Shown: piece by piece, positions 38,417-42,052 of the stretch
Layout of the letters: every line of letters begins with the position of its first letter
Position numbering within the stretch: position 1 is the stretch's first letter
From: Thermosynechococcaceae cyanobacterium MS004
GTDB lineage: Bacteria; Cyanobacteriota; Cyanobacteriia; Thermosynechococcales; Thermosynechococcaceae
Assembly (NCBI GenBank): GCA_022402525.1
Contig: JAKRSB010000095.1
Coordinates: forward strand, 62,001-126,000
Length of the DNA: 64,000 nucleotides
Direction of reading: 5' to 3'
The notes under the pieces: generated by a model
What the model was told of the DNA's origin: nothing
The model's input: only the letters and a program-made list of their open reading frames with translations
Databases searched by the model: none
Position numbers and translations under genes: made by a program

Positions 38417-38482
38417 GCCAGAACACGAGTTGAAAGCACGCGTTGAAAGCATGAGTTGAAGGCACGAGTTGAAAGCATGAGC
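38417..38482. repeat. 16-bp tandem repeat upstream of the rlmL-like gene
   Basis: Four to five units of the type GAGTTGAAAGCACGC lie directly before the rlmL-like start. They are non-coding. Confidence 0.75.
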
Positions 38483-38489
38483 TAAGGGA

Positions 38490-39614
38490 ATGAATCAATA
38501 CTTTGCAACAGCCGCCAGAGGGTTAGAAGCCCTAACGGCTCAAGAACTAGAAGGGCTGGGGGCCCATTCCGTGCGTCCAGGGTTTTGTGGCGTATCCTTT
38601 GAGGGCGATCGCGCGTTGCTCTATCGGGTCAACCTTTGGGCTAGGCTACCCTTCCGCATTTTGGTAAAGCTTAAAGCGTTTCCGGCCCAGGATGCAGAAG
38701 CGCTCTATCGCGGCATTCAGTCCATTGACTGGTCAGATCATCTCCAGCCAGATCTGACCCTGGCCGTCAACGCCACTGGCAAAAATGAGCGTCTTAACCA
38801 TACTCACTTCACGGCGCTCCAGGTCAAAAATGCGATCGTTGATCAGCAGCAGGTACAGTTTGGAGAGCGCTCAGACGTTGAGCTTCAGGAACCAGATGTG
38901 CGGATTAATGTCCATATTGGGAAAGACGATTGCACCGTCAGCCTGGACAGCTCCGGCAATAGCCTACACCGCCGAGGCTATCGCCCCGCAGTGGGTTCTG
39001 CCCCGCTTAAAGAATCTCTGGCGGCGGCGCTCATTCAGCTTTCGGGCTGGCAGCCCGACCAGCTTTTTTATGACCCCCTCTGCGGCTCTGGCACCTTACC
39101 CCTAGAGGCTAGCCTCAAGGCGCTAAATATTGCCCCCGGTCTCTTTCGCGATCGCTTTGGCTTTGAGACTTGGCCGGACTTTGATGCGTCCCTGCTCGAC
39201 CAGCTTCTCAAGGAAGCAGAAGCCAGCCAAAAGGAAACCCTGTCCGCTGCCATCTGGGGAAGCGATCGCGATGGAGCTGTGATTGAGCAGGCGATCGGCA
39301 ACGCTACCAAAAGCGGGGTGCAGGAGCATATCTGGTTTTCTCAGATGGAGCTGTCCGACGTGGTTGCACCAGGGGAGAGCGGCATCTTGCTATGCAACCC
39401 GCCCTACGGCGAACGGCTAGGGCGCGACAGTGACTTAGGGCAATTTTATAAACTACTGGGAGATGTCCTGAAGCAGCGTTTTAAGGGCTGGACTGCCTTT
39501 GTCCTTAGCGGCAACAAAGAGCTTTCCCAATTCATCGGCCTCAAATCTGCTCAACGGATTCCGGTCTACAATGGTGCGCTTCCCTGCCAGCTTATGAAGT
39601 ATGAGCTGTACTAA
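38490..39614 (+). CDS. THUMP-domain rRNA methyltransferase (RlmL-like)
   Basis: 374 residues, equal to the N-terminal methyltransferase half of E. coli RlmL. It has a ferredoxin-like/THUMP N-terminus (YFATAARGLEALTAQEL), the SAM motif DPLCGSGTLPLEASL near 193 and catalytic NPPYGERLGRD near 304. It should make m2G in 23S rRNA. The last 62 bp of the gene, with the following intergenic DNA, are repeated at 40833-40893, beyond a two-gene insertion. Confidence 0.92.
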   Translation: MNQYFATAARGLEALTAQELEGLGAHSVRPGFCGVSFEGDRALLYRVNLWARLPFRILVKLKAFPAQDAEALYRGIQSIDWSDHLQPDLTLAVNATGKNERLNHTHFTALQVKNAIVDQQQVQFGERSDVELQEPDVRINVHIGKDDCTVSLDSSGNSLHRRGYRPAVGSAPLKESLAAALIQLSGWQPDQLFYDPLCGSGTLPLEASLKALNIAPGLFRDRFGFETWPDFDASLLDQLLKEAEASQKETLSAAIWGSDRDGAVIEQAIGNATKSGVQEHIWFSQMELSDVVAPGESGILLCNPPYGERLGRDSDLGQFYKLLGDVLKQRFKGWTAFVLSGNKELSQFIGLKSAQRIPVYNGALPCQLMKYELY

Positions 39615-39731
39615 CCAGGTCTCAAAACGGTCAATACCTTATGAATGGGATGAATGGGCCATCAAATATTGGCCGTTTCCGTTATATTCGCCGTCGCAGG
39701 TTGCAAAAATGGTTCCCAGCAGCAAAAGGTA
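39553..39731. repeat. Direct repeat, left copy (rlmL end + cfa-like end)
   Basis: 179 bp comprising the last 62 bp of the rlmL-like gene, the spacer and a truncated copy of the 3' end of the CFA-like gene (minus strand, ending YLMAHSSHS). It is about 95% identical to 40833-41002. A 9-bp tandem duplication (ATGAATGGG) is present only in this copy. Confidence 0.92.
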
Positions 39732-39835: not shown

Positions 39836-40204
39836 TTACTTCAAGGCTTCAATCGTAACCATTCCCCCCTCGATTGTTTGAATCCGAAGATCGTAGCCAC
39901 GCAATAACCGCATCCCAATCAGAGGAATGGTTTCTGACTCATTGACGTAAATCTCGCGATATTGCCCATCCCAGATCACGATCGCCATGTAGACCTCAAA
40001 AGTGCAAGAAGTCCCATCACCCAATGTCGCAACATCACGACCTTCCCAACTGAGTTCCAGAGCCGAGATAATATCGAATGGCAAGGTTAAGAACCCAGAA
40101 ACCCCTGTATCAATGACAGTATCTATAAGTTGTGTTGTCGCATTGTTCTTGATGACGATCGGCAACGTTGCTTCACAACTCTGATTCACAATTCCTTGCA
40201 TCAT
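39836..40204 (-). CDS. Retropepsin-like (clan AA) aspartic protease
   Basis: 122 residues. The active-site loop VIDTGVSGFLTLP near residue 32 has the Asp-Thr-Gly triad, and a hydrophobic-hydrophobic-Gly segment (PLIGMRLLRGYDL) follows near residue 92. This is the pattern of small dimeric retropepsin-like domains. It probably works as a homodimer with an unknown substrate. The start overlaps the stop of the preceding 102-aa gene by 4 bp. The pair is carried on a 1.1-kb insert flanked by 170-180-bp direct repeats. Confidence 0.82.
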   Translation of the reverse strand: MMQGIVNQSCEATLPIVIKNNATTQLIDTVIDTGVSGFLTLPFDIISALELSWEGRDVATLGDGTSCTFEVYMAIVIWDGQYREIYVNESETIPLIGMRLLRGYDLRIQTIEGGMVTIEALK

Positions 40205-40476
40205 CGCGCCGTTCTCAAACTCCGCGCACCAAAGTGATCAACGGCTGGATGCCCAATGCGAACAAACCATGTCTGAGCATCTGGCAAGCGCGCTGAGAGG
40301 TGTTTCGATGCCGCTAACAACTCATCCGCAACCTCAAAGGCTCTTGTCTCAATGTCGATCGCTACAATCTTGCCACGATTACCTTCCTCGACTTGGGCGC
40401 GCACCTGAGATTCATAAATCTCATCGCCACGACGGGCAAATTCTTCTTTGCTATAGCGGGGTTGCCGAACTGTCAT
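40201..40476 (-). CDS. Small partner of the aspartic protease
   Basis: 91 residues from the ATG at 40476 (MTVRQPRYSKEEFARRGDE); an in-frame start at 40509 adds eleven residues. A charged N-terminal helix is followed by a strand-rich part with KIVAIDIETRAFEV and a C-terminal VRIGHPAVDHFGARSL. I have seen this family next to small clan AA proteases in cyanobacteria, but it has no assigned function. The 4-bp overlap with the protease implies stoichiometric expression, as in toxin-antitoxin pairs. No DNA-binding motif is obvious. Confidence 0.75.
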   Translation of the reverse strand: MTVRQPRYSKEEFARRGDEIYESQVRAQVEEGNRGKIVAIDIETRAFEVADELLAASKHLSARLPDAQTWFVRIGHPAVDHFGARSLRTAR

Positions 40477-40622
40477 TGACTTATCCTCAGCGCGACTTAA
40501 CGCTTCCATTTTAGATTGGGGCGGCGATCGCTAAATTCAGAGCATGCGTTGGGCTTGGCGATGCTCCCCCTAAGCTAAAAGCTAGAATGCTCTCCCTTCA
40601 GATTGAACGTGGACTTGAATTA

Positions 40623-40778
40623 ACGTGAGTCCGGCAAAAAACAACCGCCCCTCATCCTCCCATCCTCTTTCTCCCTAGGGAGAAGGAGGGGCAATTAAAA
40701 ATCAACCTTCTTAAGCCCCTCGCCCTTTGGGAGAGGGGTTTGGGGTGAGGGGCTTTAAGTGCATCATCGAACTCACGT
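40623..40778 (-). repeat. MITE-like repeat, copy C
   Basis: Reverse-orientation copy. The flanks are TGAATTA on the left and TGCATTA on the right, a 7-bp duplication with one mismatch. The uninterrupted target (GGACTTGAATTAGTCGGCTT) exists at 42311-42330. The left terminal repeat is diverged (ACGTGAGTCCGG). Confidence 0.9.
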
Positions 40779-40784
40779 TGCATT

Positions 40785-40830
40785 AGTCGGCTTGGGCATG
40801 GGTTTCGTTCCTCAACCCAACCTAGGGTAC
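40785..40830. repeat. Palindromic intergenic repeat, copy 1
   Basis: AGTCGGCTTGGGCATGGG and onward, with the hairpin GGGTT...AACCC around a CGTTCCTC loop. It shares more than 40 bp with 42325-42366. This CTCAACCCAACCTA-type repeat is common in cyanobacterial genomes. Confidence 0.75.
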
Positions 40831-40832
40831 TT

Positions 40833-41002
40833 AACGGATTCCGGTCTACAATGGCGCGCTTCCCTGCCAGCTTATGAAGTATGAGCTGTACTAACCAGGT
40901 CTAAAAACGGTCAATACCTTATGAATGGGTCATCAGATATTGGCCGTTTCCGTTATATTCGCCGTCGCAGGTTGCAAAGATCGTTCCCAGCAGCAAAAGG
41001 TA
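40833..41002. repeat. Direct repeat, right copy (rlmL end + cfa-like end)
   Basis: 170 bp matching 39553-39731. Here the CFA-like 3' end is the real one and the rlmL-derived 62 bp is the displaced piece. Confidence 0.92.
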
Positions 41003-42052
41003 AAATCGCCAGATCCGGCGAAACCTTGCATAGTCCATACCGTAGTCTAGAGACTTGACGCTCTCCTGAGAAGCATCAAATCGCTCCAGCCATGCGGTCA
41101 ATGTTTTGTGGTAGTTAATCCCATTGATGTACCACCGATCAATCGTCTTTAGATCGCAGTTGTGGCTCGGAATTGCATCATGATTCCAGTAACGTCCGTG
41201 AGGGAAAATATATTTGTGGGTGAAGCCCGATGACATATTGTTCGGGATGCGAACCGTAATGATATGGATTAGAACCTTCCCGTCGCTTTTAAGAAAAGAC
41301 GCCAGCTTCTGAAACGCACTGGTCAGGTTTCCTACATGACAGAAAACGCCAACCGAGAGAATTTTGTCGAATTTCTCGGCAAAGTCAGCCTTATTGAGAT
41401 CGCCCTCGTGGAGCGTGAATCGGCCTGAGCTGAGATAGCTCTCCGGATCTTCCATCTTGCGGCGCATGTACTCGCATTGCTGGTGGCTTAAGTTTAGTCC
41501 CGTCATCCGCACGTTGGGAAATTTAGACAGAATATAGTTGGGCACGCAGCCCCAGCCACAGCCAAAATCCAAGATATGGTCGCCATCCTTAATGCCTAAC
41601 CGCTCAATCACCTGATCAATCATGTGCATTTGCGACTGCTCAAGGCTCACTGCCCCATGTTCCCAAAGTCCCATACTGTACTTGGGATAAATAACCTGCC
41701 AATCTCCTAGCATAGGATTCAGCATTGCCTGCGGCAGATCATACTGCACCTTCATCAGCTCTTTTGACGATTCAGCCAAATGATCGGCCTCCTGGAGTAC
41801 CCATTCATAGGGAGCCAGCAGACCCGGCGCATGCTGAAATAGGGCTGGCATCGTGGCGTGTAGAAGCGATCGAAAGATGGAATCCGGTATTTCTAGCCCG
41901 TTCACGTAAGCCTCAGCCAGCGCCATTTGGGTGAGGTTAACGGCTCCAGCCATTAATCGCGTTGCCTTGTAGGCGACTGGACTTTGATTCCCCATATCTC
42001 CAACGATGGGGATATGGTTTTGCAGACTTGGAACTACCCTTGTAGAAGTCAT
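40919..42052 (-). CDS. Cyclopropane-fatty-acid-synthase-like methyltransferase
   Basis: 377 residues from the first ATG; a start about 60 bp downstream (MGNQSPVAY) is also possible. The SAM-binding motif is HILDFGCGWGCVPNYIL. CFA-like features follow: YDLPQAMLNPMLGDWQVIYPKYS, QSQMHMIDQVIERLG and the FFFP-like KYIFPHG block. The family includes cyclopropane synthases and small-molecule N-methyltransferases; the substrate cannot be fixed. The 3' end was duplicated when the protease module inserted. Its upstream 300 bp holds a desaturase-derived fragment and a palindromic repeat. Confidence 0.88.
   Translation of the reverse strand: MTSTRVVPSLQNHIPIVGDMGNQSPVAYKATRLMAGAVNLTQMALAEAYVNGLEIPDSIFRSLLHATMPALFQHAPGLLAPYEWVLQEADHLAESSKELMKVQYDLPQAMLNPMLGDWQVIYPKYSMGLWEHGAVSLEQSQMHMIDQVIERLGIKDGDHILDFGCGWGCVPNYILSKFPNVRMTGLNLSHQQCEYMRRKMEDPESYLSSGRFTLHEGDLNKADFAEKFDKILSVGVFCHVGNLTSAFQKLASFLKSDGKVLIHIITVRIPNNMSSGFTHKYIFPHGRYWNHDAIPSHNCDLKTIDRWYINGINYHKTLTAWLERFDASQESVKSLDYGMDYARFRRIWRFYLLLLGTIFATCDGEYNGNGQYLMTHS

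Follow-up and report, generated by a model that had tools for sequence, protein, structure and literature searches.

Two small, overlapping genes, one for a retropepsin-like aspartic protease and one for a partner protein of an unnamed family, probably form a toxin-antitoxin-like addiction cassette in which the protease would be the toxin and the upstream partner its antidote. We put the probability of this reading, which rests on comparative sequence evidence, at roughly 0.6. To the fuller claim we give about even weight: that the pair represents a new toxin-antitoxin class, in which a retrovirus-type aspartic protease cleaves a host protein, is neutralised by an unnamed small protein and has been recruited, as a cassette bracketed by direct repeats, into BREX/defence islands. 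The features of the locus are given in Table 1, with positions counted in the window, the whole stretch of 64,000 nucleotides that was analysed.

Table 1. Features of the gene pair and its surroundings in the window
Feature	Position	Strand	Remarks
Retropepsin-like clan AA aspartic protease gene, proposed toxin	39836..40204	-	122 aa, VIDTGVSGFLTLP
Partner gene, unnamed family, proposed antidote	40201..40476	-	91 aa
Partner ribosome-binding region	40477..40500	-	TGAGGATAAGTCA before ATG
Direct repeat copy 1	39550..39731		True 3' end of rlmL (38490-39614)
Direct repeat copy 2	40830..41002		rlmL 3'-end remnant plus true 3' end of the convergent methyltransferase gene 40919-42052
~165-bp interspersed repeat, one copy inside the insert	about 40620-40788		At least 39 genome copies, 90-96% identical

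The gene pair and its products

The initial annotation had called both reading frames and their 4-bp overlap, and we confirmed them on the minus strand, the stop codon of the partner and the start codon of the protease sharing the bases ATGA. Exactly this -4 overlap, with the same gene order, recurred in 87 of 103 homologous pairs and is therefore not attributable to chance; an SD-like motif preceded the partner in 61/91 pairs. The likeness to a toxin-antitoxin operon proposed in that annotation gains support from this recurrence, and from the finding that an intact protease is almost never without a partner. At the 79 named loci found through the partner alone, and at further whole-genome loci, the protease mostly came next on the same strand, with a remnant in the others. 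A survey of 386 cyanobacterial genomes did not find the two genes usually apart: the pair was present, sporadically, in about 80 of them (approximately a fifth), the highest numbers of matches in any one genome being 9 for the protease and 12 for the partner. The genome of the window itself has a second pair elsewhere, whose protease is 53% identical. In the literature searched, which left out most subscription papers, we found no description of the pair, in agreement with the earlier statement that no described function was known for it.

Some divergent cases were also seen. A third, diverged subfamily of the pair was seen at L029:416-1812 and L028:1498-2180, with the same 4-bp overlaps and, in L029, in a tandem array. 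Four matches came from non-cyanobacterial MAGs (Armatimonadota, Chloroflexi, Gracilibacteria and Deltaproteobacteria), which may be misbinned. Locus L062 was considered as a natural partner-protease fusion and rejected, being a frameshifted partner that reads through into an intact protease; the same genome has intact partners elsewhere, so that rescue in trans is possible. Directly downstream of this decayed copy (L062:2176-2585) lies a small gene pair that resembles HicB/HicA by eye.

By sequence and predicted structure, the 122-aa protein is a retropepsin-fold protease. Its active site is Asp32-Thr33-Gly34 (DTG at 32-34, one per chain), and this motif was kept in 101 of 102 distinct full-length proteases, the sole exception (L182) having NTT instead. 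All 28 aligned relatives matched the NCBIfam profile TIGR03698 (best 1.8e-27), whereas the window protein scored just under its curated cutoff (E 3.9e-14; 52.8 bits against 57.35). This family is named merely as a protease, and no paper naming it was found in the literature searched. An AlphaFold2 model of the protease (pLDDT 93.8) had the retropepsin fold over ~120 residues; compared with the PDB by Foldseek, it was closest to the Rickettsia retropepsin APRc (5c9b; E 1.7e-4, TM 0.64), followed by HIV-1 protease. The retropepsin-like identity first read from the Asp-Thr-Gly loop finds support in motif and predicted fold. Copies on RefSeq plasmids are annotated 'clan AA aspartic protease', and the gene beside them is a 'hypothetical protein' in the records examined. 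Among five close pairs, pN/pS was 0.13 for the protease and 0.13 for the partner, and by this sequence measure both genes are under purifying selection.

The partner was predicted (model pLDDT 78) to consist of a helix at residues 10-29, a strand-strand-helix-strand arrangement and a disordered C-terminal tail; both this model and that of the protease are of monomers. It matched no Pfam, NCBIfam or PDB family and gave no significant PADLOC match. Its predicted fold had no convincing counterpart in the PDB (Foldseek best E 1.3; VIA-align on 168 chains, best Z 4.2), an absence that does not establish a new fold. Neither a DNA-binding Pfam family nor a PDB fold match pointed to a DNA-binding domain in it. 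Most type II antitoxins have such a domain, and some antitoxins do not bind DNA.

Homology of the partner to DUF5678 (PF18929) was considered because the partner has a similar shape and because DUF5678-retropepsin fusions exist; it was rejected, as Pfam scans of partner alignments gave no PF18929 match and hhalign probabilities were 0.4-2%. The fusions, with DUF5678 N-terminal to retropepsin-like domains, occur in cyanobacteria (L218, L221, L224 and L227-L231; open frames of about 205-250 aa). They resemble our pair in that a retropepsin domain is joined, on its N-terminal side, to a small domain whose predicted layout is similar, but differ from it in that no homology between DUF5678 and the partner is detectable.

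Asymmetric decay of the two genes

The 386 cyanobacterial genomes were searched with a protease profile and, independently, with a partner profile, and the coordinates of the matches were then compared. Genes were scored as intact by profile coverage and stops, the cut being slightly stricter for the protease (90%) than for the partner (81%); one 139-aa protease with an in-frame duplication (G002 4503537), which the script had called broken, was scored intact. Of the 139 partners scored intact, 89 preceded an intact protease and 14 a broken one, and the other 36 had no protease behind them. Orphan partners were spread over about 19 genera. Thirty orphan loci were examined, and in at least 14 a truncated piece from the start or end of the protease gene followed the intact partner immediately; the orphans look recent since many still carry such fragments.

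Single survivors in these genomes were strongly skewed, with 50 partner-only loci vs one protease-only locus that had its active site. That one intact DTG protease with a ruined partner (G116:C98) is in a genome with other intact partners, and the sole intact protease lacking any partner is L182, the protease with NTT at its active site. Against an expectation of ~43% under neutral loss, derived from gene length alone, the observed protease-only share was 1/51 (binomial p~2e-11; the genomes behind this and the other decay statistics share ancestry). Such a pattern is what would be expected if the protease harms cells in the absence of its partner, and this asymmetry suggests a toxin role for the protease and an antidote role for the partner. 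Of the two roles thought conceivable in the initial annotation, a protease-based toxin or a maturation system, the decay pattern therefore favours the first, and the second found no support.

We regard it as unlikely that the two proteins are subunits of a harmless regulatory enzyme, with the partner as chaperone, propeptide-like factor or specificity adaptor of an accessory protease like RimB or Rlo. Tight coupling and fixed order would suit such an enzyme, for which the cyanobacterial DUF5678-retropepsin fusions offer the precedent of a helper domain in cis, and the bacterial retropepsins known so far have regulatory roles (PMC11957791, PMC12239564). However, if each gene were simply useless alone, first losses should follow gene length and leave ~43% of single survivors as protease-only loci rather than the single case in 51, and a sporadic, multi-copy presence with BREX and plasmid settings is ill-suited to a housekeeping regulator.

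A partner with a use of its own, to which the protease is an optional extra that functions solely in its presence, could produce the decay asymmetry as well. This possibility, which we consider improbable, likewise predicts that partner-only loci are far commoner than protease-only ones. Yet the partner was broken at 11 of 61 loci where no intact protease was present vs 1 of 90 where one was (p=2e-4), and so does not look, from these counts, as if it were kept for itself. One Microcystis locus, in its different states, illustrates this course of events: the pair is intact in L116, the protease has suffered a 281-bp deletion beside an intact partner in L118 and L162, and in L121 the partner has acquired a stop after the protease deletion. 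The frequent protease fragments at orphan loci, which make these look recent, also speak against a partner retained for its own sake.

It is very doubtful that the partner is activated through processing by the protease, in the manner of Gag-protease maturation. The retropepsin fold and the disordered tail of the partner would accord with processing, but the pair had no match in a phage collection and none was confirmed in IMG/VR, no assembly or reverse-transcriptase gene adjoins it in the window region examined, and maturation does not predict asymmetric decay. Least credible of all is a reversal of roles, with a harmful partner degraded by the protease as its antidote: the protease could in principle destroy the partner, but no result favours this, and the protease-only survivors that it predicts are outnumbered 50 to 1.

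Proposed mechanism and relation to known systems

Under the toxin-antitoxin-like reading, the 91-aa partner, whose gene lies upstream, would be translated first and the protease made alongside it by translational coupling at the ATGA overlap. The partner would bind the protease and keep it inactive or away from its cellular target. Were the partner lost or lagging, the putatively homodimeric aspartic protease would cleave some cellular protein and thereby harm the cell. The cassette would then persist by addiction, probably with an added benefit in defence or plasmid maintenance, and would spread as a unit of two genes with direct repeats on either side.

Such behaviour would be close to that of type II toxin-antitoxin modules, which the pair resembles in its two small overlapping genes with the smaller one first, in its sporadic, multi-copy and plasmid-borne distribution near defence and toxin-antitoxin genes, and in the earlier decay of the gene on the toxin side. 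It differs from them in that the toxin would be an aspartic protease and in that no domain for DNA binding could be recognised in the partner. In operon form, distribution and decay the pair looks like a type II module with a protease as toxin, and it may belong to that type. None of the nine characterised type II toxin superfamilies listed in a 2021 paper is a protease (PMC7935541), and aspartic proteases go unmentioned in a comprehensive toxin-antitoxin prediction of 2009 (PMC2701414).

Comparison with other proteases gave partial parallels. APRc, RimB and RloA share the retropepsin fold, APRc being the best PDB match of the window protease; RimB and RloA are regulators acting with ATP-grasp or membrane proteins (PMC11957791, PMC12239564), and no antidote-like partner for any of the three is described in the literature examined. 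The ParDE module adjacent to MaOC1 in Microcystis is a cyanobacterial toxin-antitoxin pair, likewise fenced by direct repeats, here of 152 bp, and lying next to a protease gene (PMC7935541). MaOC1, in contrast, is homologous to caspases and cuts the antitoxin (PMC7935541), whereas in our pair the protease itself would be the toxin.

If the proposed reading is true, protein cleavage by a retropepsin would be a further toxin activity among those known from bacterial addiction modules. The 'clan AA aspartic protease plus hypothetical protein' pair, which is widespread and was present in about one in five of the cyanobacterial genomes surveyed, would also acquire a function, and the partner would be a natural protein inhibitor of a retropepsin, i.e., of the HIV-protease fold.

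Plasmids, defence loci and direct repeats

The protease was found on eight cyanobacterial plasmid records. On a Nostoc plasmid the pair (L235:5983-6620) is nested within a BREX-1 locus, with pglZ on one side and pglX on the other. A conjugative plasmid has the pair among RelE, Uma2, PIN, DUF1156 and helicase genes, and pairs on Trichormus plasmids abut ParDE and a nuclease with its inhibitor. PIN, Uma2, Mrr and AbiEii-like genes adjoin some pairs, as individual sightings for which we claim no enrichment.

In the window, the pair lies on an insert between two direct repeats of ~175 bp, 95-97% identical in two ungapped blocks, with a 9-bp indel in addition. Within the repeats lie the final 22 codons of rlmL, together with the 3' end of the methyltransferase gene that converges on it. 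As judged from this sequence, they duplicate the rlmL/methyltransferase junction and are copies of the 3'-terminal parts of two host genes. Neither a transposase nor an inverted repeat was found in the insert. Its ~165-bp interspersed repeat is a candidate MITE-like element. Among relatives with flanking sequence the gene neighbouring rlmL differs, and the ancestral junction was not recovered as an empty site.

Comparison with L083, the most similar pair from another species (87%), delimits the unit that is shared: homology covers the two open reading frames almost to the base, plus a 39-bp piece just downstream. That pair is bracketed by an unrelated 108-bp repeat of its own, whose sequence looks like the 3' end of a different gene. 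More generally, repeats of at least 60 bp were found near the pair, on both sides, at 10 of 74 loci vs 1 of 263 shifted controls (p=1.4e-6), and outside Microcystis the bracketing repeats are unrelated between loci. Since close direct repeats recur in this way, the two-gene unit appears to move as a cassette that repeatedly sits between locus-specific duplications. The description in the initial annotation of a mobile pair on a repeat-flanked insert accordingly holds as far as a repeat-bracketed cassette at unrelated sites and on plasmids is concerned; no transposition enzyme is present. Direct repeats of such length, different from locus to locus, suggest a process that inserts two-gene cassettes, and this process merits an explanation. 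Just upstream of rlmL (window 38424-38493), we also observed four copies of a 13-bp-spaced tandem repeat.
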